NCBI GenBank assembly: GCA_017554605.1
Contig: JAFZIA010000082.1
Span: forward strand, 1-35,442
Direction: 5' to 3'
Source of the DNA: Bacteroidaceae bacterium
Lineage (GTDB): Bacteria > Bacteroidota > Bacteroidia > Bacteroidales > Bacteroidaceae
Length of the DNA: 35,442 nucleotides
Part shown: positions 1-35,442 of the stretch, piece after piece
Layout of the letters: every line of letters begins with the position of its first letter
Numbering within the stretch: the stretch's first letter is position 1
Notes under the pieces: model-generated
The model's database searches: none
What the model saw: the letters and a program-made list of their open reading frames with translations, nothing else
Told to the model about the DNA's origin: nothing
Translations under genes and position numbers: made by a program

Positions 1-304
1 TTGGCTGCGCTCATTGCGTGTGAATGCAAGCATTCACCCATTCGCTTGCACAAGCTTTCTCTCGCACTGTTTCCTTAAAACAGCCTACCCGCAATTAAAT
101 TTCTTTTCGGCGTGCAGTTGGTCTAAGATTTACCTGTTGCAATAGATGAAAAATATTAGTCATTCAATGTGAATTGCCCACACCTTTTTTCTACTGAGCC
201 TTAAAAATTCATAAGACAATCAAAAAAAAGAGAGAAACAACATACAGGAATTTTCAAAAATTCATACCTTAGCGCCATTAAACAAAAAACAAAGAACAGA
301 CAAT
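1..304. other. Non-coding leader before ddh, with degenerate repeat at its left end
   Basis: I see no credible gene here. Bases 20-37 form a near-perfect palindrome (GTGAATGC, AA, GCATTCAC). Bases 73-95, read on the minus strand, carry ATTGCGG and GGCTGTTTTAAGG separated by three bases. The same two blocks recur at 12078-12102, so this looks like a decayed dispersed repeat. The right part is A-rich and must contain the ddh promoter. The best -7 candidate is TACCTTAG at 265-272, one mismatch from TAnnTTTG, without a convincing -33 partner. Confidence 0.5.
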
Positions 305-1204
305 ATGAAAAAAATCAGAGCAGCCATTGTGGGCTACGGGAACATAGGAAAATATGCACTGCAGGCATTGGAGGCAGCACCCGACTTTGAGGTAGCAGGC
401 ATCGTGCGCCGTTCGGGAGCCGAGAACTGCCCCAAGGAGATTACCGGCTACAACGTGGTGACAGACATACGCGAACTTGGCGACGTTGACGTTGCCATCT
501 TGTCGACCCCCACCCGCAGCGTCGAAAAATACGCAAAGGACATACTGGCACTTGGAATAAACACAGTCGACAGCTTCGACATACACTCGCAGATTGTACC
601 CCTGCGCCGCTCGCTCGACGAGAGCGCAAAGTCGGGCAACGCAGTAGCCATAATATCGGCAGGCTGGGACCCCGGAAGCGATTCGGTGGTGCGCACACTG
701 CTGCAGGCAATAGCCCCCAAAGGCATTACCTACACAAACTTCGGCCCGGGAATGAGTATGGGCCACACTGTAGCTGTAAAGGCCATCGAAGGAGTGAAGG
801 CCGCCCTCTCTATGACTATCCCCGTAGGCACAGGCATACACCGCCGTATGGTGTACATCGAGCTTGAAGAGGGATACAACTTCGAGCAGGTTGCAGCAGC
901 CATAAAAGCCGACCCCTACTTTGTGAACGACGAGACACACGTGATGAACGTACCCTGCGTCGACGAGCTGCTGGATATGGGCCACGGAGTGAACCTCACC
1001 CGCAAAGGAGTGTCGGGCAGCACACAGAACCAGTTGTTCGAGTTCAATATGCGCATAAACAACCCCGCGCTCACAGGACAGGTGCTCGTGTGCGCAGCAC
1101 GCGCCACTATGCGCCAGCAGCCCGGCTGCTACACTATGGTAGAGGTCCCCGTCCTCGACCTCCTCTACGGCGACCGCGAGGAGCTGATAGCCCACCTTGT
1201 ATAA
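305..1204 (+). CDS. ddh: meso-diaminopimelate D-dehydrogenase
   Basis: This 299-residue NADPH-dependent enzyme converts L-tetrahydrodipicolinate plus ammonia to meso-diaminopimelate in one step, the short route to the peptidoglycan cross-linking residue and to lysine. The N-terminus is a Rossmann fold with the nucleotide loop [11 protein letters not shown] at about residues 9-19. The motifs STPTRS (about 67), DSFDIH (about 89), [10 protein letters not shown] (about 118) and [10 protein letters not shown] (about 146) are typical of the family. Length is slightly below the usual 320-330. The ATG lies about 30 nt after a weak -7 box, and no alternative start fits better. The gene stands alone: a strong hairpin follows it and pyrC has its own promoter. 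Its product is the substrate that MurE, encoded 22 kb downstream, adds to the peptide stem. Confidence 0.95.
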
Positions 1205-1218
1205 AAAGTGTATATAAC

Positions 1219-1265
1219 AATATGACAGTGCACCGTGGCTTTTTGCCACGGTGCACTGTCATATT
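1219..1265. terminator. Perfect 21-bp hairpin after ddh
   Basis: Bases 1219-1239 are exactly complementary to 1245-1265, with a five-T loop at 1240-1244. It begins 14 nt after the ddh stop. No U-tract follows on the plus strand, so termination is inferred from the stem strength and position. The symmetry would let it work in either direction. Stem length and perfection are greater than an ordinary intrinsic terminator needs. Confidence 0.7.
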
Positions 1266-1350
1266 ACAGGCAGCAACAGCCTGAAAAGCTACAAAATAAT
1301 AGCAAAAATCAACTTACGGTACCGCTAAAGACACTATAAATGATAAAATA

Positions 1351-1382
1351 TTTCTTTACATCACGTTTTTTTTATACTTTTG
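1351..1382 (+). promoter_or_regulatory. Bacteroidota-type promoter for pyrC
   Basis: TACTTTTG at 1375-1382 is a perfect TAnnTTTG -7 box. TTTC at 1351-1354 is a one-mismatch -33 element with a 20-bp spacer. Transcription would begin near 1389, so the ATG at 1406 is the usable start and an in-frame ATG at 1340 lies upstream of the promoter. Confidence 0.65.
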
Positions 1383-1405
1383 CGGACAAATTGAAAAAAA
1401 ACACT

Positions 1406-2743
1406 ATGCGCATACTGATAAAAAACGCCACGATAGTTAACGAAGGTCAAAAATTCATAGGTTCGATAGTGGTGAACAACGACAAGATTGCCGAAGTAAT
1501 CCACGAAGGAGAGAAGCCGCGCAGAAGCAATCTCGAAATCATCGACGCACAGGGAATGTACCTCATTCCCGGAGTCATCGACACGCACGTACACTTCCGC
1601 GAACCAGGACTGACACACAAAGGCAGCATATACAGCGAGAGCCGCGCAGCAGCAGCGGGCGGCGTAACATCGTATATGGAAATGCCCAACACCGTTCCGC
1701 AGACAACAACCGTCGGCATACTCAGGGACAAATATGCCATAGCAGCACAGGACAGCGCCGTGAACTACTCGTTCTATTTTGGCGCCACCGACAGCAACAG
1801 CAACCTCTTTTCGCGCATCAATCCCCACAAGGTGTGCGGAATAAAGCTCTTTATGGGTTCAAGCACAGGCAATATGCTCGTTGAAAGCCGCGAGAAGCTT
1901 GCACAGATATTCGCCTCGGCAAGACTGCCGTTGGCCGTACACTGCGAGGACACCACCATCATAAACAAGAACATCAAGAAGGTTACAGCAAGCGAAGGGA
2001 CCGACCCCGACGTCTCGTTCCACCCCGTGATACGCAGCGCCGAGGCCTGCTACCAGTCGACAAAGAGTGCCATTGAACTTGCCAAGGAATTCAGCACACA
2101 ACTGCACGTGCTGCACATAAGCACGGCAAAGGAGCTGGAACTCCTTGCAACCGTACCTGCGGAGCACAAGCGCATATTCGCCGAGGTAACCCCCGCGCAC
2201 CTCACCTTCTGCGACGAGGACTACAAGAGACTGGGAACACGCATAAAGTGCAACCCCGCGATAAAGACAGCAAAGGACCGCGATGCACTGCGCAAAGCCC
2301 TCAACGAGGACAGGATAGACCTCATAGGCACCGACCACGCACCGCACCACATCGACGACAAGAACGGCGGTGCGCTCAAAGCCGCATCGGGAATGCCCAG
2401 CATACAATTCTCACTCCTTGCAATGCTCCGCCTCGTCGACGAGGGAGTACTGTCCATAGAGACACTTGTCGAGAAAATGTGCCACGCCCCCGCACGGCTC
2501 TTCAAGATACGCCACCGCGGCTACCTGCGCAAGGGACACATTGCCGACTTTGTACTCCTTGACCCCAATGCACCCCACACGATAAAGAAAGAGGACATAC
2601 TGAGCAAATGCGGCTGGAGCCCCTTCGAAGGGGAGACCTTCAACTGGAGCGTGCGACAGACCTGGGTAAACGGCGAGTGCGTCTACAAGGACGGAACAAT
2701 AAACGACGAGGTACGCGGCAAATCCCTACGATTCGACCGATGA
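1406..2743 (+). CDS. pyrC: dihydroorotase (class I type)
   Basis: This 445-residue zinc amidohydrolase cyclises N-carbamoyl-L-aspartate to dihydroorotate in pyrimidine synthesis. The metal site is intact: DTHVHFREPG at 59-68 (His61, His63), a carboxylatable lysine in GIKLFMG (Lys147), His179 in HCED, His237 in LHIS and Asp310 in GTDHAPH. The length and the HVHFREPG form fit the long class I enzymes rather than the short E. coli type. The frame is open further upstream to an ATG at 1340, but the promoter at 1351-1382 falls inside that extension, which has no family similarity, so I chose 1406. The TGA stop overlaps the ATG of the next gene (ATGA), implying translational coupling to the MetH reactivation-domain protein. 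Confidence 0.95.
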   Translation: MRILIKNATIVNEGQKFIGSIVVNNDKIAEVIHEGEKPRRSNLEIIDAQGMYLIPGVIDTHVHFREPGLTHKGSIYSESRAAAAGGVTSYMEMPNTVPQTTTVGILRDKYAIAAQDSAVNYSFYFGATDSNSNLFSRINPHKVCGIKLFMGSSTGNMLVESREKLAQIFASARLPLAVHCEDTTIINKNIKKVTASEGTDPDVSFHPVIRSAEACYQSTKSAIELAKEFSTQLHVLHISTAKELELLATVPAEHKRIFAEVTPAHLTFCDEDYKRLGTRIKCNPAIKTAKDRDALRKALNEDRIDLIGTDHAPHHIDDKNGGALKAASGMPSIQFSLLAMLRLVDEGVLSIETLVEKMCHAPARLFKIRHRGYLRKGHIADFVLLDPNAPHTIKKEDILSKCGWSPFEGETFNWSVRQTWVNGECVYKDGTINDEVRGKSLRFDR

Positions 2744-3546
2744 AGAAGCATCGCCTTACATACAAAGCCGATGAACTGACACCCTACATCAACTGGGACT
2801 ACTTTTTCCACGCCTGGAGCATACCGCACGCAAGGCAGGGCGAGGCCGCAGCCAAACAACTGCAGCACGACGCCGTGGAGCTCATCTCGGGCAACAACTG
2901 CAACGTGCACGCACTCTTTGCACTGTGCGAGGCGCACAGCACGGGCGACAACATAGACATTGAAGGCACACTGCTGCCCCTGCTGCGGCAACAGCACACA
3001 CTCCCCGGCAAGCCCAACCTGTGCCTGAGCGACTTCGTATCGCCATATAAGGACAGGATAGGACTGTTTGCCACAGCCATTGAAAAATCATTCGAAGATA
3101 AAAGAAGCAACGACGACCCCTACACAAGCCTGTTAATACAGACAACTGCCGACCGCCTTGCCGAGGCTGCGGCCACACGCCTGCACCTCGACGTACGCAC
3201 AAAAGAGAGCCTTTGGGGCTACTCGCCCGATGAACGGCACACCATCGAGGAGCTGCTGCACGAGAGGCATCAGGGCATACGCCCGGCAGTGGGCTATCCC
3301 TCGCTGCCCGACCAATCGGCCATATTCATAATAGACAAGCTAATCACACTCTCCGACGCAGGAATAACCCTCACTCCAAGCGGCGCAATGCAGCCGCACG
3401 CCTCGGTGTGCGGCATTATGATAGCCCACAGCGCAGCACGCTACTTTTCGGTGGGCAACATCTGTGACGAGCAACTGCACGACTATGAGCAAAGACGCGG
3501 GATACCCGCCGCCACGCTGCGCAAATACCTTGTCCGCAACATATAA
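2740..3546 (+). CDS. stand-alone methionine synthase (MetH) reactivation-domain protein
   Basis: This 268-residue protein matches the C-terminal S-adenosylmethionine-binding activation domain of cobalamin-dependent methionine synthase, not the whole enzyme. That domain re-methylates oxidised cob(II)alamin with AdoMet so MetH can restart. Recognisable blocks are YINWDYFFHAW near residue 16, RLAEAAATRLH followed by ESLWGYSPDE in the middle, then GIRPAVGYPSLPDQ and SGAMQPHASVCG near the C-terminus, corresponding to the RPAxGYPxxPDH and MxPxASVSG motifs of MetH. There is no homocysteine, folate or cobalamin domain, so it must act in trans on a MetH encoded elsewhere. Separate reactivation domains are known in Bacteroides and Thermotoga. 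The frame stays open upstream into pyrC, but 2740, overlapping the pyrC stop, is where the domain-like sequence begins. Confidence 0.88.
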   Translation: MKKHRLTYKADELTPYINWDYFFHAWSIPHARQGEAAAKQLQHDAVELISGNNCNVHALFALCEAHSTGDNIDIEGTLLPLLRQQHTLPGKPNLCLSDFVSPYKDRIGLFATAIEKSFEDKRSNDDPYTSLLIQTTADRLAEAAATRLHLDVRTKESLWGYSPDERHTIEELLHERHQGIRPAVGYPSLPDQSAIFIIDKLITLSDAGITLTPSGAMQPHASVCGIMIAHSAARYFSVGNICDEQLHDYEQRRGIPAATLRKYLVRNI

Positions 3547-3570
3547 CCGCAACATATTACCCCTTTTCTA

Positions 3571-3600
3571 TTGAGAGAAAAGAAAAAAACAGTATATTCG
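3571..3600 (+). promoter_or_regulatory. Probable promoter for plsC-lpdA
   Basis: TATATTCG at 3593-3600 is one mismatch from TAnnTTTG. TTG at 3571-3573 lies 19 bp upstream, the normal Bacteroidota spacing. The predicted transcription start is about 20 nt before the ATG at 3627. Confidence 0.5.
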
Positions 3601-3626
3601 CAAAAAATATCTAACAAATACACGCT

Positions 3627-4358: not shown

Positions 4359-4385
4359 TCCATTAATCCATAAAAACAGAAAAGT

Positions 4386-5735
4386 ATGTACGATATAGCT
4401 ATAATAGGTGCAGGACCTGCCGGATATGTGGCAGCCGAGAATGCAGGAGCGTCAGGACTCAAAGTAGTTCTGTTCGAAAAGAAAGAGCTTGGTGGCGTAT
4501 GCCTCAACGAGGGTTGCATACCCACAAAGACACTGCTCTACAGTGCAAAGATGTACGACCACGCACAAGGCGGAAAGAAATACGGCATCACAGCACAGGA
4601 GGTTGCCTACGACTACAAGAAGATTGCCGACCGCAAGACAAAGGTAGTGCGTAAGCTCGTGGCAGGAATAAAGATGAAGATGGAGCACCACAACGTAGAG
4701 GTGGTGCGCGGCGACGCATACATACAGAGCGGTAACGAAAGCTGCATAAACATCACCTGCGGAGAACAGGCTTACCAGGCAGCAAAGCTGCTTATATGCA
4801 CCGGAAGCGAGGCATTCGTACCCCCAATCCCCGGAGTACAAGACAACCCCGCGATACTCACCAACCGCGAGATACTGTCACTGACTGCAGCCCCCGAGAG
4901 CCTTACAGTCATTGGCGGCGGAGTGATAGGAATGGAGTTCGCAAGTTTCTACAACAGCCTGGGCATTCCCGTGACAGTAATTGAAATGCTGCCCGAGATT
5001 TTAGGAGGCATAGACAAGGAGATAGGCGAGATGCTCCGCTCAATCTATGCAAAGAAAGGCATCAAATTCCATTTGAACAGCCGTGTTACAGCCATAGAGG
5101 GCAACACCGTACATTTTACCGACGCCGAGGGCAACGAATCGTCAATAGAGGGTGACAAGATACTGGTGAGCGTGGGTCGCCGTCCTGTCTTGCAAGGCTA
5201 CGGACTCGAGAATATCCCCGTAGCAGTGGAGCGCGGCATAAAGGTGAACGAGCATATGCAGACATCAATGCCCAACGTATATGCAGCGGGCGACGTGACA
5301 GGATTTTCGCTGCTTGCACACACAGCCAGCCGCGAGGCCGAGGTTGCCATAAACCACATACGCGGCATTGAGGACAAGATGGAATACAACGCAATCCCCG
5401 GAATTGTATATACCAACCCCGAGGTTAGCAGCGTGGGACTTACCGAGGAGCAGGCAGCGGCACAAGGCATCGAGTACCGCCTGAGCAAACTCCCGATGAC
5501 ATACGCAGGACGCTTTGTAGCCGAGAACGAGGGACAGACAGGACTGTGCAAAATCCTCACAACCCCCGACGGCAAGGTGCTTGGCGTACATCTGCTTGGA
5601 AACGCATCGAGCGAGTTTATATGCGCTGCCTGTATGGCTATAACAAACAGGCTGACAGTGGAGCAACTGCGCCGCACGGTATTCCCCCACCCCACAGTGT
5701 GCGAGATACTGAAAGAGGGCGTTTTTGAAATTTGA
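4386..5735 (+). CDS. lpdA: dihydrolipoyl dehydrogenase
   Basis: This 449-residue FAD flavoprotein reoxidises protein-bound dihydrolipoamide with NAD+ as the E3 part of 2-oxoacid dehydrogenase or glycine-cleavage complexes. It shows GAGPAG (8-13) for FAD, the redox disulfide CLNEGC (Cys39, Cys44), a second dinucleotide fold with GGGVIGMEF near 177, YAAGDV near 300, and the C-terminal dimer-interface dyad FPHPTVCE (His435, Glu440). All catalytic residues are present and length is slightly below the usual 460-475. No E1, E2 or glycine-cleavage gene is adjacent, so its partner complex must be encoded elsewhere. It follows plsC by 27 nt, probably in one transcript. Confidence 0.93.
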   Translation: MYDIAIIGAGPAGYVAAENAGASGLKVVLFEKKELGGVCLNEGCIPTKTLLYSAKMYDHAQGGKKYGITAQEVAYDYKKIADRKTKVVRKLVAGIKMKMEHHNVEVVRGDAYIQSGNESCINITCGEQAYQAAKLLICTGSEAFVPPIPGVQDNPAILTNREILSLTAAPESLTVIGGGVIGMEFASFYNSLGIPVTVIEMLPEILGGIDKEIGEMLRSIYAKKGIKFHLNSRVTAIEGNTVHFTDAEGNESSIEGDKILVSVGRRPVLQGYGLENIPVAVERGIKVNEHMQTSMPNVYAAGDVTGFSLLAHTASREAEVAINHIRGIEDKMEYNAIPGIVYTNPEVSSVGLTEEQAAAQGIEYRLSKLPMTYAGRFVAENEGQTGLCKILTTPDGKVLGVHLLGNASSEFICAACMAITNRLTVEQLRRTVFPHPTVCEILKEGVFEI

Positions 5736-5757
5736 GACTGCAAACCTGCAAGGAAAC

Positions 5758-8415: not shown

Positions 8416-8604
8416 AGAAGCTGTTTTAAATTTATATCGCCAAGTTTTTATAGAGCAAAAATAGGGTGTTTATTTATTTTTTAAGGGCGCATAGCAGGCT
8501 ATGTAACCGTAAAAAAAGAAAGAAACAGACATTTTTGAACATAAAAACGGCGAAACAATCAGCTTCTATCAAGAAAATGTTTTTAGAAATTTAAAACAGT
8601 TTCT
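8416..8604. repeat. 189-bp MITE-like repeat, complete copy
   Basis: The ends are imperfect terminal inverted repeats: AGAAGCTGTTTTAAATTT at 8416-8433 and its complement with one mismatch at 8587-8604. The interior is AT-rich and non-coding. It contains CATAGC, a 2-nt loop and GCTATG at 8489-8502, a small hairpin. Read on the minus strand, its right two thirds align with 35305-35442, and its left 44 nt on the plus strand match 14164-14206. I see no clear target-site duplication. It fills most of the gap between the GNAT gene and argG and may supply or block transcription there. Confidence 0.75.
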
Positions 8605-8648
8605 AGGAAGATAATTGAACAAACAATAAAACATATATATATACAGAT

Positions 8649-9851
8649 ATGAGCAAGAAAAAAGTAGTGGTTGCATTCAGCGGAGGACTCGACACCTCCT
8701 TCACCGTAATGTACCTTGCAAAAGAGAAAGGCTACGAGGTTTACGCAGCCTGCGCAAATACCGGCGGCTTCAGCCCCGAACAGCTTAAACAGAACGAAGA
8801 AAATGCCTACAAGCTTGGAGCAACAAAATATGTGACACTCGACGTTACACGCGAGTACTACGACAAGAGCCTGCGCTATATGATATACGGCAACGTGCTG
8901 CGCAACGGCACATACCCCATATCGGTATCATCGGAGAGAATATTCCAGGCACTTGCAATAGCACGTTACGCCAACGAGATTGGCGCATCGGCAATAGCAC
9001 ACGGCTCTACAGGCGCAGGCAACGACCAGATACGCTTTGATATGACATTCCTTGTACTCGCACCAGGAGTAGAAATCATCACCCTCACACGCGATATGGC
9101 ACTCACACGCGAATACGAGATAAACTACCTCAACGAGAATGGCTTCAGCGCCGACTTCACCAAGCTCAAGTACTCGTACAACGTAGGTATCTGGGGAACA
9201 TCAATCTGTGGCGGCGAGATTCTCGACTCGGCACAGGGACTGCCCGAGAGCGCCTACCTCAAACAGGTTGAGAAAGGTGGCGAGGAGGAGCTTCGCCTCA
9301 CATTCGAGGAGGGCGAGCTCAAGGCTGTAAACGGCGAGAAGTTCGACGATCCCATCAAGGCAATACAGAAAGTAGAGGAAATTGGAGCACCCTACGGCAT
9401 AGGACGCGATATGCACGTGGGCGACACAATCGTAGGCATCAAGGGCCGCGTAGGCTTTGAGGCAGCAGCACCTATGCTCATTATAGGTGCACACAAATTC
9501 CTGGAGAAATACACACTGAGCAAATGGCAGCAATACTGGAAGGACCAAGTTGCCAACTGGTACGGAATGTTCCTGCACGAGAGCCAATACCTTGAGCCCG
9601 TGATGCGCGACATCGAGGCAATGCTCGAGAGCTCGCAGCGCAACGTGACAGGTACAGCCATTCTCAAGCTGATGCCCAAGCACTTTGAGACAGTGGGTGT
9701 AGAGTCGCCCAACGACCTTGTAAAGAACAAGCTCGGCGAATATGGCGAAATGCAGAAGGGCTGGACAGCCGAGGAGGCAAAAGGCTTTATCAAAGTGACC
9801 TCAACCCCCTTGCGCGCATATTACCTTAACCACCCCGACGAAAAAATTTAA
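8649..9851 (+). CDS. argG: argininosuccinate synthase
   Basis: This 400-residue enzyme joins citrulline and aspartate with ATP to give argininosuccinate. The N-terminal ATP pyrophosphatase loop AFSGGLDTS is at 9-17. Further motifs are AHGSTGAGNDQIRF near 117, EINYLNENGFS and SYNVGIWGTSICGGEI in the citrulline and aspartate-binding part, and GIKGRVGFEAAAP toward the C-terminus. Length is normal. It is preceded by a 238-nt gap occupied largely by the 189-bp repeat, so it may have its own promoter, but I found no convincing -7 box directly upstream. argC starts 9 nt after its stop, so argG, argC and argD form one operon. Confidence 0.95.
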   Translation: MSKKKVVVAFSGGLDTSFTVMYLAKEKGYEVYAACANTGGFSPEQLKQNEENAYKLGATKYVTLDVTREYYDKSLRYMIYGNVLRNGTYPISVSSERIFQALAIARYANEIGASAIAHGSTGAGNDQIRFDMTFLVLAPGVEIITLTRDMALTREYEINYLNENGFSADFTKLKYSYNVGIWGTSICGGEILDSAQGLPESAYLKQVEKGGEEELRLTFEEGELKAVNGEKFDDPIKAIQKVEEIGAPYGIGRDMHVGDTIVGIKGRVGFEAAAPMLIIGAHKFLEKYTLSKWQQYWKDQVANWYGMFLHESQYLEPVMRDIEAMLESSQRNVTGTAILKLMPKHFETVGVESPNDLVKNKLGEYGEMQKGWTAEEAKGFIKVTSTPLRAYYLNHPDEKI

Positions 9852-12228: not shown

Positions 12229-13710
12229 TTATTTTATCAATATCTTTTTCCCGTTTATTATATAAACACCTTTTGTAGGGAATTTAACCGCACGTCCAGC
12301 GAGGTCGGTGACAGATCTATCTTCATCGCAAACAAGAGTATTTTCCATATTCCTCATCTCTTCTTCGGACAACTCTATAATATTCTCGAACAAGTTCCAG
12401 CCCTCGGTCAATTTATATGCATCGAGTGCTCCTGCGGGTATATGCAGTTTGCAATTTTCTTTATCCACATTGCCGAACACAGTTGTATCCACTGCAAACA
12501 GCCTCTCCCCGGGTATCAAGGATATTATTGTTTCAATATTGCTGCAATCGTAGAAAGCGTAGCTGCCCAATGTTCTTAGAGTGCTGGACAAATGCAAGCC
12601 GGTTATCTCCTTGCAACCATTAAAGACTCCATCAGAAATTCCTATAATACCTTCGGGAATAACCATCTCGCCTGCAGGCTCATTATAATTATAACCTATT
12701 ATATTGTTTTTACAAACAGCGTATTCGGCAGGTAGCTGCATATATACATCGAAACTGTCTACATCGGTTACCTGGTACATATTTTTTGTTGCCAATACAG
12801 CAGCCTTTTGGGCAACAAGCGCCGTTTCATCGGTGATATTGAAAACCCCTTTTTGATTTTCATTCAATGTTCTCAGGCGGAAGCCGTTTCCAACAATACT
12901 GCCGAACCGAGGGGCAAACAACGTCTCCCAATAGCAGCAGGCCGCTACATAATCGCCCAGCCCGTCAGCAAGATGGCTGCCGTCTGTGGAGAAGTCACTG
13001 CCGTCATTCAACGACGTGGCACGCAGGTTCTCTACGGCAGTGCCATAAGGGACAATAAAGTCTATGCCATAATTCAGCTTCAGCCTCTTGACCGAATTGG
13101 CTATATCCTGCCATCTCTTGAACGAGGATTTGCTTTTGTTCTCGGCATAACTCCAGCTCCAGCTATGAATCAATAAAAATCCGATTGCAGCTTGGGGATT
13201 TGTTTCACGAATAATGGAGATGAGTTCTTTGAGGCAGCCTTTATTGCCTCCACCATTCCAAGCATCGAAATTTGCAGAATAGGAACTGTACTGATGAATC
13301 AGTATCAGATCCCATTTGCCGTTTTTCAACGCCTGCCTAAAAAGATGCCCGTCACGAACTCTGCCGTCGCCGCAAGTCACATCGGGTATGGCGTAACCGC
13401 AGATATGCCCAATCTCATATTCTTCTGTATCCTTGTCGTTATAAGCGTCTACCCAAGACCTGAAACTCGCGCCTCCGCGTGTTGCACAATAAAGAGAATG
13501 GCAGCCGGCAGCGTTTGCCGCAGCCGCAATTTGAGGAATGTAGTGCGTTGCATCAAGAGTGTAGCTGTTGCCAATATCCAAAATGCGCAAATTCTCCTTG
13601 CTTAAATTGCATAGAGGGTTACCGTATGCAGGGATTGTATCACTGCCCGATGCAGCATTGGAATGTGCAAGAGCAAGCAACATTGCAAAGAAAAGCAGAA
13701 ATTTCTTCAT
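12229..13710 (-). CDS. secreted SGNH/DUF4886-like protein with BspA-type leucine-rich repeats
   Basis: Function is unknown. The 493-residue product starts with a signal peptide (MKKFLLFFAMLLALAHSNA). The N-terminal domain resembles DUF4886, an SGNH-hydrolase-like fold: ILDIGNSYTLDA carries a GNS (47-49) in the block I position and DGSH (243-246) fits the block V Asp-x-x-His, so an esterase or deacetylase active site is plausible. Residues about 345-400 (MVIPEGIIGISDGVF, LSSTLRTLGSYAFYDCSN) form two or so BspA-type LRR_5 repeats. The last 20 residues (DLAGRAVKF, GVYIINGKKILIK) resemble the tail of many Bacteroidales secreted proteins. In-frame ATGs at 13722 and 13743 are possible starts; 13710 gives the cleanest signal peptide. 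Codon use looks less biased and more AT-rich than neighbours, and two of the roughly four GATC sites in the window lie here, hinting at a different history. Confidence 0.8.
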   Translation of the reverse strand: MKKFLLFFAMLLALAHSNAASGSDTIPAYGNPLCNLSKENLRILDIGNSYTLDATHYIPQIAAAANAAGCHSLYCATRGGASFRSWVDAYNDKDTEEYEIGHICGYAIPDVTCGDGRVRDGHLFRQALKNGKWDLILIHQYSSYSANFDAWNGGGNKGCLKELISIIRETNPQAAIGFLLIHSWSWSYAENKSKSSFKRWQDIANSVKRLKLNYGIDFIVPYGTAVENLRATSLNDGSDFSTDGSHLADGLGDYVAACCYWETLFAPRFGSIVGNGFRLRTLNENQKGVFNITDETALVAQKAAVLATKNMYQVTDVDSFDVYMQLPAEYAVCKNNIIGYNYNEPAGEMVIPEGIIGISDGVFNGCKEITGLHLSSTLRTLGSYAFYDCSNIETIISLIPGERLFAVDTTVFGNVDKENCKLHIPAGALDAYKLTEGWNLFENIIELSEEEMRNMENTLVCDEDRSVTDLAGRAVKFPTKGVYIINGKKILIK

Positions 13711-14292: not shown

Positions 14293-15747
14293 ATGACAAA
14301 CCTACTCAGACTCCTTAAGAAAAACGGTAGAATAGTAAAGCTGTTGTTTGTGGCAGTGCTCACAACCATAATGTGGTTCCTGCCCATCGATGCTTTTGGA
14401 ATAGAAGGACTGACCGTGCTCCAGCAAAGAATCATCGCATTGTTCGTGTTTGCCGCCACAATGTGGATTCTTGAGGCTGTGCCCGCGTGGACCACGTCGT
14501 TGCTCATAATAGTGCTTATGCTGCTCACCGTCTCCACCAGCGGAATATCGTTCCTCATAAGCGACATTCCCAAGACCGAGCTCATCAACTACAAGACCAT
14601 TATGGCAACCTTTGCCGACCAGACCGTGATGCTCTTCCTGGGCGGATTCATACTGGCGCTCGTCGCCTCCAAGAGCGGCGTGGACATAACCCTTGCCCGA
14701 GCAATGCTCCGCCCGTTCGGTACACGCCCCCGCGTGGTACTCTTTGGATTTATCCTTGTTACGGCAGTATTCTCGATGTTTGTGAGCAACACGGCGACTG
14801 CCGCAATGATGCTCACCTTCCTCACTCCGGTGCTCAGGTCGCTCCCCGCCGACGAGAAAGGCCGTACGGCACTTGCACTGGCAATACCCATCGGCGCCAA
14901 CATAGGAGGAATGGCAACCCCCATCGGCACACCCCCCAACGGCATTGCACTCGGCTATCTGAACAACACCGAGGGACTCAACCTCGGCATCGGCTTTGAC
15001 CAATGGACAATGGTAATGACACCGCTGATGCTCGCCATACTCGTATTTGCGTGGTTCCTGCTGAGCAAGATGTTCCCCTTCAAGGCCGACAGCGTCCAGC
15101 TTAAAATCATAGGCGGAGCAAAGAAAGGCTGGAGGACAACCGTGATATACATAACCCTTGCCCTAACAATCGCACTGTGGATGTTCGAGAAGGAGACAGG
15201 AATAAACTCATACATTGTCGCACTCATTCCCGTAGGCATATTCAGCCTCACCCGAATAATAAAGTCGGGCGACCTGAAGGAGATTGACTGGTCGGTACTG
15301 TGGATGGTTGCCGGAGGCTTCGCGCTGGGCGTGGGAATGGACAAGACAGGCCTTGCCAAGACCCTTGTACAGGCAATCCCCTTCAACGAGTGGCCGGTGC
15401 TTATTGTTATTGTGGGCAGCGGAGTGATATGCTGGCTGCTCTCCACATTCATCTCAAATTCGGCAGCGGCAGCGCTTATGGTGCCTATCCTGGCGGCAGT
15501 GGGCAAGGGAATGGGACCTATGCTCGATGAGTTCGGTGGCATCGGCACACTGCTAATCGGAATAGCACTCTCGGCATCGTTTGCAATGGCACTGCCCATA
15601 AGCACCCCTCCCAACGCAATATCATACTCCACAGGACTTATAAAATCGTCGCAGATGTGCACAGTAGGTATTATAATAGGAATAGTATCACTTGCACTGG
15701 GATACGCTACCCTCGTATTCATCGGACGTACAGGATTCTTCGGATAA
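14293..15747 (+). CDS. DASS (SLC13) family sodium-coupled anion/dicarboxylate symporter
   Basis: This polytopic inner-membrane protein of 484 residues has about 11-12 hydrophobic segments. It carries the two pseudo-symmetric substrate and Na+ sites of the family: SNTATAAMM in the first half with PIGTPPN after it, and SNSAAAALMVP with PISTPPN in the second. The second motif is SNS rather than the canonical SNT. Family members import succinate, malate, fumarate, citrate or sulfate with Na+; a C4-dicarboxylate is likely but not provable. The frame is open back to 14125, but that extension runs through a repeat copy and the predicted promoter, so I chose the ATG at 14293. Its neighbours are a porin-like protein and NhaA. 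Confidence 0.87.
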   Translation: MTNLLRLLKKNGRIVKLLFVAVLTTIMWFLPIDAFGIEGLTVLQQRIIALFVFAATMWILEAVPAWTTSLLIIVLMLLTVSTSGISFLISDIPKTELINYKTIMATFADQTVMLFLGGFILALVASKSGVDITLARAMLRPFGTRPRVVLFGFILVTAVFSMFVSNTATAAMMLTFLTPVLRSLPADEKGRTALALAIPIGANIGGMATPIGTPPNGIALGYLNNTEGLNLGIGFDQWTMVMTPLMLAILVFAWFLLSKMFPFKADSVQLKIIGGAKKGWRTTVIYITLALTIALWMFEKETGINSYIVALIPVGIFSLTRIIKSGDLKEIDWSVLWMVAGGFALGVGMDKTGLAKTLVQAIPFNEWPVLIVIVGSGVICWLLSTFISNSAAAALMVPILAAVGKGMGPMLDEFGGIGTLLIGIALSASFAMALPISTPPNAISYSTGLIKSSQMCTVGIIIGIVSLALGYATLVFIGRTGFFG

Positions 15748-20332: not shown

Positions 20333-21230
20333 GCAGACAGTATACCACACTCCGGTGATGCTCAACGAGAGCGTGGAGGGAATGGAGATTGAAAAGGACA
20401 GCATTTGCGTAGACGTCACATTCGGCGGCGGAGGACACTCGCGCAGGATACTCGAAGAGCTGGACAACAGCGGGCACCTGTACAGTTTCGACCAGGACGA
20501 AGATGCCGAGAAGAACGCCCCCGACGACAAGCGCTTCACCTTTGTACGCGGCAACTTCCGCTTTCTGTACAATTTTATGCGCTACTACGGCGTAGAAAAG
20601 ATAGACGCCCTGCTGGCCGACCTGGGAGTGTCGGGACACCACTTTGACGACGAGACACGCGGCTTCTCCTTCCGCTTCGACGCCGACCTTGATATGCGAA
20701 TGAACAACAGGGCGGGACGCACAGCAGCCGACCTGCTGAACGAGGCAAGCGAAGAGGAGCTCGCAAGAATCTTCAAGCTCTACGGCGAGCTCAACTGCAG
20801 CCGCAAGCTCGCATCGGCCATCGTCAAGCAGAGAGCACAGAAGCCCTTCCGCAAGGTGAGCGACCTCATAGAGGTCTCAAAGCCCTTCTGCCCCCCGCAG
20901 CGCGAGAAGAAAGAGCTTGCCAAGATATTCCAGGCACTGCGCATAGAAATCAACCAGGAGCTCGAGAGCCTGAAGGAGATGCTCGAGCAGGCAAAAGAGC
21001 TGCTCCCCGCAGGAGGACGCCTGGTTGTCATAACATACCACTCCATCGAGGACCGCATAGTAAAGAACTTTATGAAGAGCGGCAACATAGAAGGCGAAAT
21101 AACAAAGGACTTCTTTGGCAGGATCGAGTCGCCCTTCGAGGCAAAGAAAGTGATGCTACCCACACCCCAGGAACAGGAGAGCAACCCCCGTTCGCGAAGC
21201 GCTAAACTAAGAATAGCAATCAAAAAATAG
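20325..21230 (+). CDS. rsmH: 16S rRNA (cytosine-1402 N4) methyltransferase
   Basis: This 301-residue SAM-dependent enzyme (MraW) methylates N4 of C1402 in the ribosomal decoding centre. The start is clear: HTPVMLNESVEGM, then the SAM loop DVTFGGGGHSRRIL at about 30-43, DALLADLGVSGHHFD near 90, RGFSFRFDADLDMRM near 107, and the late VVITYHSIEDRIVKNF. All are family motifs. It overlaps the end of mraZ by 8 nt and has a strong Shine-Dalgarno-like site. It is the usual second gene of the mra cluster although its role is in translation rather than wall synthesis. Confidence 0.96.
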   Translation: MSEQTVYHTPVMLNESVEGMEIEKDSICVDVTFGGGGHSRRILEELDNSGHLYSFDQDEDAEKNAPDDKRFTFVRGNFRFLYNFMRYYGVEKIDALLADLGVSGHHFDDETRGFSFRFDADLDMRMNNRAGRTAADLLNEASEEELARIFKLYGELNCSRKLASAIVKQRAQKPFRKVSDLIEVSKPFCPPQREKKELAKIFQALRIEINQELESLKEMLEQAKELLPAGGRLVVITYHSIEDRIVKNFMKSGNIEGEITKDFFGRIESPFEAKKVMLPTPQEQESNPRSRSAKLRIAIKK

Positions 21231-27892: not shown

Positions 27893-29166
27893 GCATCGGG
27901 AATATAACAAAGCTGTTCAAGGGAGACCGCATCGTGTGGTGCATCTTCTTTACCCTGTGCATACTTTCACTGATAGAGGTATTCAGTGCAAGCAGCAGCA
28001 AGACCTTCAACACAAGTTTCTGGTCGCCGATAATCACGCACGGCAAATTCATCGCCGGCGGCGTTATTGTAGCCTGGCTTGTACATACATTCAAGATAGA
28101 ATGGATAAAGTCATCTACAAAGTGGGTGTATCTTGCCGGGATAGCAATGCTCATATACGCACTGTTCAACGGAGTGTCAATCAACGTGAGCCGGCGCTGG
28201 ATATACATCTTCGGAGTACAGTTCCAGCACTTCGAGATAGTGAAGCTGGGCGTGGTAATGCTCATTGCACTCATTCTGACAAAAGCGATGGAGGGTGAGC
28301 GCACATACCTGTCGTGGGACTCGGCATTGGCACTGATAAGCAAAAAGCTGAAAGGCGACAACCGCGAGGGCGACTACACAATGCGTTCCATTATCGTATG
28401 CGTAGCGATACCCTGCGCATTCATCTTCACCGAGAACCTCTCCACTGTCATCATAATAGCGGCAGTAGCCTTCCTTATGATGATATTCGGCAACGTGAAC
28501 TGGAAGCACCTGCTACTCCTTACGGGCACACTTGCCGCATTCGCAATTTCGGGTATCCTGCTTTTGCATATGGTACCCGAGGAGTTCAAGGAATACGGCT
28601 CCATAGGCAGCAAGATTGTCACCTGGAAGCACCGCATAGTAGACGGAACAGACTCCTTCAAGATACAGGACGCCGACGACGTTGTAATATCGGGCAACGA
28701 GCAGCTTGTCTACTCGAAAGTCGCTATTTCCGAGGGCGGCGTAACAGGCCGCGGACCGGGAAACTCCGTACGCCGCGACTTTATCCCCCACGCCTACAAC
28801 GACTTCATTTTCTCAATAATACTCGAAGAATTGGGACTGCTGGGAGGAATATTCACAATAATTCTGTACCTTACGCTGCTCTACCGTTGCGGAGTGATAG
28901 CCCGTGACTGCGACGACCCCTACGCCATCTTCCTTGTGACAGGACTGGGAGTGCTTATATGCATTCAGGCAATGATGCACATGACAATATCCGTAACAAC
29001 TTTCGTTTCGGGCCAGCCACTCCCGCTCATAAGCCAGGGCGGAACGTCGTTCATCATAAACTGCACATACATAGGAATAATACAATGCGTAAGCAAATAT
29101 GTAAGAAGGCAGAACAGGGAGACCACCAAAGAGACTACAGACACACAGGAAACACAAACAAACTAA
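27889..29166 (+). CDS. ftsW: SEDS-family peptidoglycan glycosyltransferase FtsW
   Basis: This 425-residue polytopic protein polymerises lipid II at the septum together with FtsI. Family marks are VSRRWIYIFGVQFQ near 95, NLSTVIIIAAVAF in mid-protein, GVTGRGPGNSVRRDFIPHAYNDFIFSIILEE-type loop at about 285-312 (containing the catalytic-loop aspartate region), and the late SGQPLPLISQGGTSF. About ten transmembrane segments are visible. A charged loop at about 140-160 separates membrane segments. It overlaps murD by 4 nt. It is assigned as FtsW rather than RodA from its place in the division cluster. The only CATG I found in the window lies inside this gene at 28980-28983. Confidence 0.94.
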   Translation: MSIGNITKLFKGDRIVWCIFFTLCILSLIEVFSASSSKTFNTSFWSPIITHGKFIAGGVIVAWLVHTFKIEWIKSSTKWVYLAGIAMLIYALFNGVSINVSRRWIYIFGVQFQHFEIVKLGVVMLIALILTKAMEGERTYLSWDSALALISKKLKGDNREGDYTMRSIIVCVAIPCAFIFTENLSTVIIIAAVAFLMMIFGNVNWKHLLLLTGTLAAFAISGILLLHMVPEEFKEYGSIGSKIVTWKHRIVDGTDSFKIQDADDVVISGNEQLVYSKVAISEGGVTGRGPGNSVRRDFIPHAYNDFIFSIILEELGLLGGIFTIILYLTLLYRCGVIARDCDDPYAIFLVTGLGVLICIQAMMHMTISVTTFVSGQPLPLISQGGTSFIINCTYIGIIQCVSKYVRRQNRETTKETTDTQETQTN

Positions 29167-30334: not shown

Positions 30335-30335
30335 G

Positions 30336-31718
30336 ATGGAACTCAAGAATATAAAATCGGTATATTTTCTGGGAGCAGGCGGCATTGGAATGAGCGCCCT
30401 TGTACGTTACTTCCTGCGCGAGGGAAAGGTTGTGGCAGGCTACGACCGCACACCCAGCGAACTAACCTCGCGCCTCATTGAAGAGGGAGCGCAGCTACAT
30501 TTCGAGGAGGACACCGCCGCCATTCCCCAGGAGTGCCGCGACAAGGAGAGCACCCTTGTGGTGTACACCCCCGCAATACCCAAGGGACACAAGGAGTGGG
30601 AATATTTCCGCAACAAAGGCTTCGCAATAAAGAAACGCGCCGAGGTGCTTGGAATAATCACACGCGACAGACGCGGCGTATGCGCAGCCGGCACACACGG
30701 AAAGACAACGACCTCCACTATGACAGCCCATCTGCTGCACCAGTCCCACGTCGACTGCGCAGCCTTTTTGGGAGGCATATCAAAGAACTACAAGAGCAAC
30801 CTCATAGTAACGGACAAGAGCGACCTTGTGGTCATTGAGGCCGACGAGTACGACCGTTCCTTCCTGCAGCTCACCCCCTACGTTGCAGCCATCACCAGCG
30901 CCGACCCCGACCATTTAGACATTTATGGCAACAAAGAGAACTACCTCGAGGCCTTTGCCCAGTTCACAGAGCTCATACGCCCCGACGGATACCTCATTAT
31001 GCACGAAGGTCTGGAGGTTGAGCCGCGCACACAGCAGGGAGTGAAGTGCTACACCTACGGACGCCACAGCGGCGACTTCCACGCCAGGAACATACGCATT
31101 GGCGGCGGAACGATAATATTCGACTACTGCTCACCTTTTGGCGACATCAAGGACGTTGAGCTTGGAGTACCCGTGAGCATAAACATAGACAACGGGATAG
31201 CATCTATGGCAATGGCGCAGATATGCGGTGCCACAGACGACGAGATACGCCAGGGAATGAAGAGCTTCGCAGGTGCCGACCGCCGCTTCGACTTTCACAT
31301 AAAGGACGACTCGCTGGTACTGTTGAGCGACTACGCCCACCACCCCGACGAAATAAAGGCCTGTGCCGAGTCGATGAAGGCACTCTACAGCGACAGGAAG
31401 ATAAGCGTGATATTCCAGCCGCACCTCTTCAGCCGCACAGCCGACTTTTACAAGGAATTCGCACGCAGCCTCTCGCTCTTCGACGAGGTAATCCTCACCG
31501 AGATATACCCCGCACGCGAAGAACCGATGCCCGGAGTTACAAGCAGGCTCATATTCGACCTGCTCGCACCCGACGTGGAGAAGACAATGTGCAGCCGCAG
31601 CGAGGTACTCTCAATCGTCGAGGCAAGGAAGAACGATTTTCAGGTACTAGTATCGCTGGGAGCAGGCGACATAGAGAACGACGTGCCCCGAATGGCAGAA
31701 ATATTGAAGAACCGTTAA
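30336..31718 (+). CDS. murC: UDP-N-acetylmuramate:L-alanine ligase
   Basis: This 460-residue cytoplasmic ligase starts the peptide stem by adding L-alanine. The uridine-binding loop FLGAGGIGMSALVRYF is at 11-26. The P-loop GTHGKTTTST is at 119-128. EADEYDRSF lies near 169, TSADPDHLDIYG near 186, and the C-terminal DYAHHPDEIKA and FQPHLFSRT are conserved. The Mur ligase set is completed by murF, which is not in this window. It lies 22 nt before ftsQ. Confidence 0.96.
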   Translation: MELKNIKSVYFLGAGGIGMSALVRYFLREGKVVAGYDRTPSELTSRLIEEGAQLHFEEDTAAIPQECRDKESTLVVYTPAIPKGHKEWEYFRNKGFAIKKRAEVLGIITRDRRGVCAAGTHGKTTTSTMTAHLLHQSHVDCAAFLGGISKNYKSNLIVTDKSDLVVIEADEYDRSFLQLTPYVAAITSADPDHLDIYGNKENYLEAFAQFTELIRPDGYLIMHEGLEVEPRTQQGVKCYTYGRHSGDFHARNIRIGGGTIIFDYCSPFGDIKDVELGVPVSINIDNGIASMAMAQICGATDDEIRQGMKSFAGADRRFDFHIKDDSLVLLSDYAHHPDEIKACAESMKALYSDRKISVIFQPHLFSRTADFYKEFARSLSLFDEVILTEIYPAREEPMPGVTSRLIFDLLAPDVEKTMCSRSEVLSIVEARKNDFQVLVSLGAGDIENDVPRMAEILKNR

Positions 31719-31740
31719 CGGCAGCAGCAAAGTAACAAAT

Positions 31741-32469: not shown

Positions 32470-32475
32470 CACCAA

Positions 32476-33954
32476 ATGGCAAAGAACGAATATATAGCAG
32501 CAATAGAAATAGGTTCATCAAAAATCTCGGGCGTGGTGGGAATGCACACCGTGTCGGGAATAAGGATTCTGGCCTACGCAAGCGAAGCCTCGAACAGCTA
32601 CGTAACCAAAGGAGTGATACGCAACGTCGACGAAGCGAGCAAGAGCCTCAACAGCATCATAAACCGCCTCGAGAGCCAGATGGAGAACATACATATAAAG
32701 AAGGCATACATATCATTCAGCAGTATGTCCACACACTCCATTGCCTCAAAGGTAGTAAAGTCCTTCGACACCTTTACAAAAGTGACGCCCGAAATAATAC
32801 AGGAGATGCTCTCGGAGAACGAGCCGGCATTCAAGGTGCCGGCAGGCTACAAGAAGCTGCAGGTGGTGCCCCAGGAATACAAGCTCAACGGCGACACAAG
32901 CACCCAGCCCATAGGCACACCCACAATGAGCATAGAGTGCAACTACCTGAACATAATAGTAAAGGAGCAGTATATGCGCCAGCTCGAGGAGAGCTTCGCA
33001 ACAGCCGAGATAGAGATTGCAGGCAGTTCGAACACCGCACGTCTCGAAGCAGAGTTCATACTGAACGAAGAGGAGATGAACTGCGGCTCGGCATTGGTGA
33101 ACATTGGAGCCGAGACAACAACCGTAGCAATATACTCGGGCAAGATGCTGCGCAAGCTTACAGTAATTCCCATAGGAAGCGCAAACATCACAAAGGATAT
33201 ATGCTCGGAACAGATAAGCTACAACGACGCCGAACAGATTAAGATATTCAAGGGCTACAACTCCGCCCCCGACAGCAGTTCGCCGTTGACCCCCGAACAG
33301 ATAAACAACATCATATCGGGACGAATGCTTGAGATACTCAAGAACGTACAGTACCAGATTGAGAATTCGGGCTACAATATCGGCCGCATCATATTCACAG
33401 GCGGAGGCACCAAGCTCAAGAACATACACGCCATAATAGAGGAGAATCTGCCCAACTACAAGTTCCGCATAGCCAACGACATACAAACCCCATACAACAA
33501 CGACAACAATCTTCCAATAACAACGGGAAACATCACCCCCACACTGTTCGGCCTGCTGAGCAAAGGCACAATAAACTGCTGCGACGAAGAGGTTATAGCT
33601 CCAGCAGATGCAATAGTCCCCGAGGACCTTTTCAGGACAAATACCACACACGAGGAAGCCGCAGCACAGGCAATGGCAACCACCACAGAGAGAACTGCTG
33701 CTATCAAAGAGAGCCCCGATGAAGAAGAAGCAGAAGAAGAGGCAACAACAGAAACACCCGTCACAAAAGCCCCCGGGGAGACAACCGGAGGCACAACCGA
33801 AGAGAACGTCATAGACACGCCAAGCGACACCGGCAAGGGCCGCAACAAGAAAAACCCGATAGAAGCCATAAAAAGCTTATTCGACGACTGGTGGAGCGGC
33901 GAAGTCACAAGCGACGAGAGCAGCAGAGACGAGAGAGACAACGACGAACTGTAA
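32476..33954 (+). CDS. ftsA: cell division protein FtsA
   Basis: This 492-residue actin-like ATPase tethers FtsZ to the membrane. The phosphate-1 motif is AIEIGSSKISGVVG at 9-22, with a second ATP-binding stretch ALVNIGAETTTVAIY near 210 and FTGGGTKLKN near 310. The actin-like fold ends near residue 370. An unusually long acidic and threonine-rich linker of about 75 residues (rich in EEE and TTE runs) leads to a C-terminal KNPIEAIKSLFDDWW (about 456-470), the likely amphipathic membrane helix, and then a short acidic tail. The extended linker suggests a more flexible membrane tether than in E. coli. It follows ftsQ by 6 nt. Confidence 0.95.
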   Translation: MAKNEYIAAIEIGSSKISGVVGMHTVSGIRILAYASEASNSYVTKGVIRNVDEASKSLNSIINRLESQMENIHIKKAYISFSSMSTHSIASKVVKSFDTFTKVTPEIIQEMLSENEPAFKVPAGYKKLQVVPQEYKLNGDTSTQPIGTPTMSIECNYLNIIVKEQYMRQLEESFATAEIEIAGSSNTARLEAEFILNEEEMNCGSALVNIGAETTTVAIYSGKMLRKLTVIPIGSANITKDICSEQISYNDAEQIKIFKGYNSAPDSSSPLTPEQINNIISGRMLEILKNVQYQIENSGYNIGRIIFTGGGTKLKNIHAIIEENLPNYKFRIANDIQTPYNNDNNLPITTGNITPTLFGLLSKGTINCCDEEVIAPADAIVPEDLFRTNTTHEEAAAQAMATTTERTAAIKESPDEEEAEEEATTETPVTKAPGETTGGTTEENVIDTPSDTGKGRNKKNPIEAIKSLFDDWWSGEVTSDESSRDERDNDEL

Positions 33955-33973
33955 CGAACAAACAAGCACAACT

Positions 33974-35305
33974 ATGAACGAAACAGAAAATATCGGCAGC
34001 GAGCTGCTCCCGTTCGCCATTTCCAAAGGCACACAGCGCATAATAAAGATTATCGGCGTGGGCGGTGGCGGTAGCAACGCCGTAAAGAATATGTATAAGG
34101 AGGGAGTGCACAATGTATCGTTTGCAATATGCAACACCGACCTTCAGGCACTCAACGACTCGCCAATCTCGGTAAAAATACAGTTGGGCGACAAGACAAC
34201 CGAAGGACTGGGAGCAGGCAACGACCCCGCCGTTGCCCGAGCTGCCGCCCTTGAGAGCAAGGAGCAGATAGAAGCCCTCTTTGACGACGGTACAAAGATG
34301 GTGTTCATCACCGCAGGAATGGGTGGAGGAACAGGAACAGGCGCATCACCCATCGTAGCGCAGATAGCCAAGGAAAAAGGAATGCTCACGGTGGGCATCG
34401 TGACAATCCCCTTCCGCTTTGAGCTTGGCGGAAAAATCAAGCAGGCCCTGAAAGGAGTGACCGAGATTGCCAAGCACGTCGACGCGCTGCTTGTGATAAA
34501 CAACCAGCGCCTGCTGAGCATCTACCCCGAACTCACGCTGAAGGCAGGATTCAAGAAAGTGGACGAGGTGCTCACCACCGCCACAAAGAGCATAGCCGAG
34601 ATTATCACCGCACGCGGAACCATCAACCTCGACTTCCGCGACGTGAAGAAAGTGCTCAAGGACGGCGGAGTGGCAATTATGAGCTACGGCTGCGAGTCGG
34701 GCGAACAGCGCGTGGCAAAAGCCTTCCGCAAGGCACTGCACTCGCCCCTGCTCAACGACAACGACATATACAAATCCAAAAAAATACTCTTCAACATATA
34801 CGAGAACCCCAACTCCCCCATAATGGTAGCCGAAATGGAGGAGATTGAGAGCTTTATGCGCAAATTCTCCGAGGAGTACATCGAGGTAATATGGGGCGTG
34901 AGCGAGGACCACTCCCTGCGCGACGGCGACGTGAAGGTGACAGTACTTGCCACAGGCTTTGGAATGAAGAACATTCCGGGTATGGAGCCCGTTATAAAGA
35001 AACAGGAAGATGAACAGGTTGCAGCCACACGCGAAGAGCAGAAGAAGATAGAAGCCGAAGAAGAGGAGCTCCAGCAAATGGCCAACGTCTTCTACAAGCA
35101 GGACTACCGCGTCTACATCTTCACCGGCGACGAGATGTTCGATGAGGATTTTGTATCGACCGTCGACAGCCAGCCCACCTACAGCCGCAGCGCCCACGAG
35201 CTCGAGCAGCTAAAGAGCCGCAGCAAGGCAATGGCAGCAGCCAAGGAGCAGGCCCAGGCACAGGAGACCACAAGCCAACCCCAAGAAGAACCTACCGTAA
35301 ACTAA
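33974..35305 (+). CDS. ftsZ: cell division protein FtsZ
   Basis: This 443-residue tubulin-like GTPase forms the division ring. GVGGGGSNAV is at 28-37, the G-box GGGTGTG at 117-123, and the T7-loop NLDFRDVK is near 218. The globular core is complete to about residue 330. The rest is a charged coiled region (EEQKKIEAEEEELQQM), a short structured-looking stretch (YKQDYRVYIFTGDEM) and a glutamine and glutamate-rich end. I do not see the usual conserved C-terminal peptide that binds FtsA. The last base of the stop codon is the first base of a repeat copy. Confidence 0.95.
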   Translation: MNETENIGSELLPFAISKGTQRIIKIIGVGGGGSNAVKNMYKEGVHNVSFAICNTDLQALNDSPISVKIQLGDKTTEGLGAGNDPAVARAAALESKEQIEALFDDGTKMVFITAGMGGGTGTGASPIVAQIAKEKGMLTVGIVTIPFRFELGGKIKQALKGVTEIAKHVDALLVINNQRLLSIYPELTLKAGFKKVDEVLTTATKSIAEIITARGTINLDFRDVKKVLKDGGVAIMSYGCESGEQRVAKAFRKALHSPLLNDNDIYKSKKILFNIYENPNSPIMVAEMEEIESFMRKFSEEYIEVIWGVSEDHSLRDGDVKVTVLATGFGMKNIPGMEPVIKKQEDEQVAATREEQKKIEAEEEELQQMANVFYKQDYRVYIFTGDEMFDEDFVSTVDSQPTYSRSAHELEQLKSRSKAMAAAKEQAQAQETTSQPQEEPTVN

Positions 35306-35442
35306 GAAGCTGTTTAAATTTCTAAAAAAAGTTATTATTATATTGGAAGCCGTTATTTCGTTGTTTTTTATGTTCAAAACTGCCCGTTTTCTTCTTTCTC
35401 TCGGTTACGTAGCCCGCTACGCGCCCTCGAAAAATAATAAAA
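35305..35442. repeat. MITE-like repeat, copy cut by the window edge
   Basis: From AGAAGCTGTTTAAATTTC at 35305 onward it aligns with the minus strand of the 8416-8604 repeat over about 130 nt, at roughly three-quarters identity by eye. The motif CGTAGC, CC, GCTACG here corresponds to CATAGC, CT, GCTATG there. One base pair has changed on both sides, which points to a conserved hairpin. It begins on the last base of the ftsZ stop codon and probably continues beyond the window. Confidence 0.75.

Follow-up and report, generated by a model that had tools for sequence, protein, structure and literature searches.

Multi-word restriction-site avoidance in a Bacteroidaceae genome nearly devoid of CATG

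The window analyzed here, a whole 35,442-nucleotide stretch of DNA from a Bacteroidaceae bacterium (positions 1 to 35442; contig C25 of the genome designated G000), was found to be nearly free of the tetranucleotides CATG, GATC, and CTAG, as judged by direct counts, codon-aware null models, and a sample of the genome from which it derives. G000 represents an extreme and real case of restriction-site avoidance, which extends to multiple words and is accompanied by cognate gene families for two of them. Long exposure to orthodox Type II restriction-modification (R-M) systems, in which self-cutting favors the loss of recognition sites, is believed to explain the depletion of CATG, GATC, and the other words, with an estimated probability of approximately 0.74.

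The window contains a single CATG (positions 28980 to 28983) and four GATC sites, all of them coding (9348 to 9351, 12314 to 12317, 13308 to 13311, and 21122 to 21125), exactly as reported in the initial annotation. A second-order Markov model of the plus strand predicts 133 CATG and 63 GATC sites. Synonymous-codon shuffling inside each of the 29 genes treated as coding (32,694 bases; 300 shuffles) yielded 122.7 CATG (standard deviation, 7.4; lowest value, 100) and 64.9 GATC (lowest value, 46), and a shuffle which also preserved the dinucleotides at codon junctions (200 shuffles) yielded 132.1 CATG (lowest value, 114) and 67.6 GATC (lowest value, 44). Codon or dinucleotide bias is, therefore, ruled out as the cause by both codon-preserving shuffles. 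The earlier expectation of approximately 138 GATC copies was derived from base composition, whereas codon-aware models yield approximately 65. The Karlin ratio for CATG in the window alone is 0.01. The combined count of GGATG and CATCC in the window genes is also low (9 versus approximately 47 expected). CTAG occurs twice (8603 to 8606, intergenic; 31647 to 31650, coding) against an expected 41.5, although this scarcity carries little weight, since many prokaryotes likewise have few CTAG sites (the word is low in 55.4% of control site-genome pairs), which has been attributed in part to very-short-patch-like repair (PMC4687349).

An effect confined to the window, which, like prediction of the counts by a codon-aware null model, the initial annotation had named as a refutation, is ruled out by the same pattern across the sampled genome. 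G000 is a 2.48-Mb assembly of 140 contigs (87.6% complete), from which 40 further stretches (two consisting entirely of N) were combined with the window to give 564,622 bases, of which 559,826 were readable, or approximately 23% of the genome. Across this sample, CATG was encountered 90 times on both strands against 3,618 expected (45 versus 1,809 per strand), and GATC 212 times against 2,364 (106 versus 1,182 per strand), corresponding to 2% and 9% of expectation, respectively. The suggestion that the loss is limited to these two tetramers proved too narrow, since CTAG (100 versus 1,308), CATCC (the complement of GGATG; 171 versus 776), GATATC (42 versus 282, the most depleted hexamer), AACGTT (36 versus 161), CATATG (84 versus 318), and CAGCTG (66 versus 248) are strongly avoided as well. 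The Karlin ratios of CATG (0.036), GATC (0.108), and CTAG (0.070) all fall genome-wide below the under-representation threshold of 0.78 (PMC4687349), and those of the control palindromes GTAC, TGCA, TCGA, and GGCC lie between 0.82 and 0.93.

The shift in codon choice proposed in the initial annotation is borne out in the same sample. Among codons which precede Met and encode residues permitting a choice between C and T, the third base is T in 1,635 cases, A in 977, G in 420, and C in 19, compared with 903 T, 1,475 C, 409 G, and 1,020 A in stretches from relatives without CATG avoidance. A single contig, C8 (50.7 kb; L011, L031, and L032), is of lower GC content and holds 15 of the 45 leftover CATG sites of the sample. 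It encodes a Fic gene, a RhuM-family gene, a sub-threshold match to TraG, and a large N4/N6 methylase of a kind found in type III systems; this content suggests that C8 is an accessory island, and imported DNA from which CATG has yet to be purged would fit its residual sites.

The search for R-M genes, which had been recommended for both words, was successful for CATG. A four-gene cassette (L020:15307-18921, contig C26) is located between a murF-like gene and ddl in G000; the names of these genes, as well as those of ftsZ, ftsW, nth, pgk, and dihydrolipoamide dehydrogenase, were assigned by eye from translations. The first cassette gene, which probably starts at 15307 and extends to 16089, encodes an N4/N6 methylase and lies directly upstream of the gene for an ICEA-family nuclease of 228 residues (L020:16099-16785), which matches PF05315 across positions 1 to 218 of 218 (E value, 1.1e-114). 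The third gene (L020:16701-17915) specifies a possible second nuclease, whose matches (EVE, NucS, and Alw26IDE-like) are weak, and the fourth (L020:17920-18921), two genes downstream of that encoding ICEA, specifies a D12 methylase (E value, 3.9e-54). M.NlaIII and M.HpyI are likewise of the D12 kind. ICEA is the family of iceA1, which is reported to be 52% identical to NlaIII (PMC2749054), and CATG is the target of M.HpyI, the methylase belonging to the iceA system (PMC10423294). On the basis of this homology, the ICEA-family protein is predicted to cut CATG, with one of the adjacent methylases, D12 or N4/N6, as its probable partner. The arrangement resembles the NlaIII and HpyI (iceA1-hpyIM) systems of Neisseria and Helicobacter in its full-length ICEA match and nearby D12 methylase, but differs from them in comprising four genes, with a second methylase and the weakly EVE- and nuclease-like protein.

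GATATC is the second word for which a cognate family was identified. Contig C79 encodes an EcoRV-family nuclease (PF09233; E value, 2.7e-101) whose closest PDB chains are those of EcoRV itself (E value, approximately 6e-36), adjoined by a D12 methylase (E value, 4.1e-19). This pairing, coupled with GATATC at 15% of expectation, parallels the EcoRV system, with a specificity that is predicted by homology; the host and genome context differ. The EcoRV family was detected in G000 alone among the 44 genomes of the genus, and GATATC stands at 0.15 of expectation in G000 compared with 0.99 in G085, 0.69 in G152, and 0.60 in G046 (samples of 324 to 398 kb); counts in 20-kb stretches were too small to judge, although a few were also low. 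A further N4/N6 methylase, with no evident nuclease neighbor, is encoded at L024:1378-2355 (contig C45), its best PDB match being 8urk (E value, 3.7e-35), labelled "Methyltransferase."

Comparison of sister species provides a view of how CATG sites are gained or lost. None of the 70 aligned CATG sites of G159 is retained in G164 (84% identity), and G116 retains 1 of 81, whereas the controls kept from G159 to G164 amount to 52 of 103 for TGCA, 45 of 60 for TCGA, 44 of 74 for CATC, 29 of 70 for ATGC, and 14 of 41 for GTAC. The changed sites differ at positions 1, 2, 3, and 4 in 7, 14, 11, and 44 cases, respectively, and 50 of the 67 coding changes preserve both amino acids. The most common replacement is CATA (31 of 70), which would correspond to a C-to-T change before ATG on the other strand, and thus to a synonymous change before Met. 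The CATG state, therefore, changes between sister species, whether by purging or by refilling.

To place G000 among its relatives, 44 genomes of the genus were considered, 41 of which matched FtsZ (G180 apparently via a weak paralogue), and from each of 40 relatives one stretch around ftsZ, at most 20 kb long, was taken. Named relatives found via FtsZ are Bacteroidaceae metagenome assemblies, mostly from herbivore guts, and those outside the close group (L056 to L063) show CATG at 0.5 to 0.93 and GATC at 0.2 to 0.53 of expectation. Within the genus the CATG state is near-binary: 10 of the 41 genomes (G000, G169, G130, G157, G184, G181, G168, G164, G116, and G152) reach no more than 0.12 of expectation, G179 (0.24) and G161 and G173 (approximately 0.52) are intermediate, and the remainder range from approximately 0.63 to 1.05. 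ICEA was found in 3 of the 44 genomes (G000, G157, and G116), all of which are CATG-poor (Fisher P, 0.011; 41 genomes) and carry both cassette methylases. Apparent matches to the N4/N6 methylase in 25 of the 44 genomes were strong in these three only and weak elsewhere, mostly covering the first 40 to 60 residues of the query, which represent the end of the murF-like gene in the wrong frame, the others being short methylase stretches. Among 4- to 6-mers expected at least 6 times in each of the three ICEA carriers, CATG stands far ahead of all others in shared depletion, and no second word, as might be anticipated for the other methylase or possible nuclease, approached it. In the wider family, ICEA exceeded the cut-off in 2 of 151 genomes. 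Among 72,556 plasmid records, the ICEA protein matched one, weakly, and the D12 methylase matched 109, all at less than 60% identity; the two plasmid regions that were inspected contained no annotated ICEA neighbor.

The cassette is mobile: it resides between the murF-like gene and ddl in G000, whereas in G116 its neighbors are an nth-like and a pgk-like gene, and the corresponding site in G169 is empty (murF end, L119:1622; ddl start, L119:1652). In G000 it is flanked by imperfect repeats of approximately 24 bases (21 matches in 25 aligned columns), resembling the empty site, and it carries two CATG sites in approximately 3.6 kb, a density higher than that of the sample (45 in 559,826 bases).

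Under the proposed mechanism, the lineage would long have been host to orthodox Type II systems, whose nuclease and methylase act separately. Whenever methylation lagged, following replication, at low enzyme levels, or upon loss of a system, unmethylated CATG, GATC, and other host sites would be cut, and mutations which remove such sites would be favored, with self-cutting as the presumed selective agent. Nearly all of these mutations can be synonymous, because one synonymous change is able to remove a CATG or GATC within a gene. Several CATG systems may have succeeded one another, with the cassette now present being only the most recent of them, and the avoidance of GGATG, AACGTT, CATATG, and CAGCTG would similarly constitute a record of other R-M systems.

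Several observations weigh against this explanation or its reach. Seven of the 10 CATG-poor genomes lack a gene for ICEA, the one CATG nuclease family that was searched for, four of them (G130, G168, G164, and G152; 86 to 90% complete) lack a D12 methylase, and the ICEA gene of G157 is divided between two contigs with one stop reported. On a tree of dcw proteins, the CATG state separates six independent pairs, of which an average of 1.3 also differ in ICEA, such that a tree-aware link between ICEA and CATG cannot reach significance. In G169, the closest relative, CATG is likewise scarce (2 versus 68) despite an empty murF-ddl junction. The CATG avoidance thus outlasts the cassette, precedes it, or stems from other CATG systems. 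In Helicobacter pylori, moreover, the CATG methylase is universal and CATG is the densest motif studied, with the nuclease, absent in some strains, being unlinked to motif density (PMC10423294); purging of CATG is, therefore, not automatic with the iceA family, and the near-erasure of CATG in G000 sets it apart from that host. For GATC, the word is low nearly genus-wide, yet no GATC nuclease was found in G000 by the search for the DpnII family, its three D12 hits all being assigned either to the EcoRV pair or to the cassette with ICEA, and one carrier of a DpnII-family nuclease, G101, is merely reduced (17 versus 62).

A variant of the Type II explanation, in which CATG was purged earlier by a different and since lost CATG system and the cassette is a late arrival, is regarded as possible, though somewhat doubtful. 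A CATG-free genome would tolerate a new NlaIII-type system well, and the empty but CATG-poor G169, the different location of the cassette in G116, the elevated CATG density of the cassette, and the published view that avoidance can mark systems since lost (PMC4687349) are all consistent with this order of events. The CATG-poor state of all three ICEA carriers argues for the contrary, and precise loss of the cassette from G169, or its presence in the unassembled part of that genome (79% complete), fits equally well. In G169 and G184, two CATG-poor genomes without ICEA, very similar D12 methylases and a similar neighboring gene occur beside phage-like genes that also resemble each other (L209 and L210; Phage_tail_S found for L209), probably reflecting a shared prophage; these were considered as possible alternative CATG methylases.

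A mutational or repair bias, such as very-short-patch-like repair or a mutable methylated base, which destroys words without any cost of self-cutting, is considered very improbable. The low CTAG frequency of many prokaryotes, partly ascribed to such repair (PMC4687349), lends it some plausibility; however, CATG sites have changed at all four positions between G159 and G164, mostly with retention of both amino acids, and CATC and CATA exceed expectation, in contrast to the near-absence of CATG. The genome yielded no match to the cytosine C5 methylase family PF00145, and 5-methylcytosine deamination was, therefore, rejected as a cause. An origin of the avoidance in strain-to-strain DNA exchange, in phage or plasmid traffic, or in a GATC-reading regulator or repair nuclease is deemed unlikely. 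Such an origin would accommodate the nearly genus-wide scarcity of GATC in the face of a DpnII family limited to 5 of 44 genomes, and DNA exchange and MutH have been proposed as reasons for GATC avoidance (PMC4687349). It does not sit easily with CATG states that differ between close sisters, which presumably share DNA donors, or with GATATC being most depleted in the genome harboring the EcoRV-family gene. Restriction pressure is well supported as the force behind CATG loss, as the initial annotation had proposed, with the NlaIII/iceA-family nuclease and methylase genes present in the genome itself; its extension to GATC found no such cognate system.

GATC stands at 0 to approximately 0.45 of expectation in almost the entire genus. 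The DpnII-family nuclease was detected in G101, G151, G165, G179, and G181, with GATC counts in the stretches of these carriers of 17 versus 62, 6 versus 55, 0 versus 36, 1 versus 57, and 2 versus 27 expected, respectively, and DpnII/MboI-type genes represent a plausible source of the genus-wide avoidance. The search of G000 for the DpnII family (PF04556) returned no match in the 87.6% complete assembly; Sau3AI/MutH and DpnI were not searched for. It is likely, although held with less confidence than the corresponding proposal for CATG, that GATC was purged by past DpnII-type systems which have since been lost from, or are unassembled in, G000. GATC has been reported to be avoided where systems reside in related strains (PMC4687349).

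The avoidance may extend to protein sequence. His-Met can be encoded only as CACATG, which contains CATG, or as CATATG, and Trp-Met is always encoded as TGGATG, which contains GGATG. His-Met is, therefore, without a safe coding in genomes which avoid both CATG and CATATG. In the window, the sole CATG is a CAC ATG (His-Met) of the ftsW-like gene (28978 to 28983, plus strand), whose synonymous alternative, CATATG, is also avoided; CATATG occurs at His-Met pairs of the same ftsW-like gene (28567 to 28572, plus strand) and of the dihydrolipoamide dehydrogenase-like gene located at 4386 to 5735 (5253 to 5258, plus strand). Multi-contig samples of four genomes, with open reading frames picked mechanically and no CATG-only avoider among them, were compared. 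His-Met is reduced in G000 (31 versus 70.6 expected, 0.44; 30 of 31 as CATATG) and G152 (21 versus 57.0, 0.37; 15 CATATG and 6 CACATG), which avoid both words, less so in G046 (33 versus 56.3, 0.59; 31 of 33 as CACATG), which avoids CATATG only, and least in G085 (34 versus 45.6, 0.75), which avoids neither. In a pooled comparison, His-Met was the lowest of approximately 400 dipeptides (ratio, 0.62), also when frames of at least 200 or at least 300 codons were used (0.58 and 0.66), and it ranked first in G000 and in G152, each compared with G085, at all three cut-offs. Against this, it ranked only 2 to 7 in G000 and 1 to 7 in G152 when compared with G046, Met-His is low in G152 too, and the ftsZ-region stretches of nine CATG-poor relatives, the gene content of which is not comparable, displayed no depletion (26 versus 24.0). 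A contrast between the genome-wide sample and ftsZ-region stretches was discarded, since gene content differs and other dipeptides differed more. Trp-Met is not depleted (39 versus 41.4). Selection of His-Met out of proteins by two conflicting taboo words in doubly avoiding genomes is thus a tentative proposal, for which the evidence is suggestive but which we hold at slightly less than even odds. A limited search of the literature on restriction avoidance altering amino acids recognized no such work.

Earlier studies by Gelfand and Koonin in 1997 and by Rocha and coworkers in 2001 are said to have dealt with Type II site avoidance. Avoidance of Type II R-M sites in host genomes has been described by Rusinov et al. 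in 2015 (PMC4687349), and G000 resembles the cases described there in its genome-wide depletion, its cognate nuclease genes for two words, and the depletion seen in system-free relatives. It differs from them in Karlin ratios far under 0.78, in the many words affected together, in the near-binary states within one genus, and in the possible reach into protein sequence.

Other members of the genus display purged words of their own. In the G046 and G152 samples (L166 to L205), the countable CTNNAG hexamers stand at 0.01 to 0.14 of expectation, compared with approximately 0.6 to 1.2 in G000 and G085, a loss which looks like a degenerate restriction specificity; CTAAG and CTCAG are low in G152 as well. 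In G046 (L186 to L205), GTATAC, GTCGAC, and GTAGAC are at 0.02 to 0.07 and other GTNNAC words at 0.4 to 1.2, yielding a GTMKAC pattern, with CCAGG at 0.05 and CTAG at 0.02. A CCRYGG pattern is apparent in G085 (L146 to L165; CCGCGG, 0 versus 13; CCATGG, 12 versus 59; CCACGG, 4 versus 19). Tetramers purged in individual species include GGCC in G178 (L084; 7 versus 56), AGCT in G158 (L085; 8 versus 42), GCGC in G182 (L095; 2 versus 20), ACGT in G155 (L096; 0 versus 21), and CGCG in G160 (L087; 24 versus 69).

Because these taboo lists are species specific and differ between sisters, word counts may be read as a history of R-M systems, lost ones included, and the genus constitutes a natural experiment on the speed at which chromosomes are purged and refilled. 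Should the proposed effect on His-Met hold true, the selection that restriction enzymes exert on DNA words would shape proteins as well.

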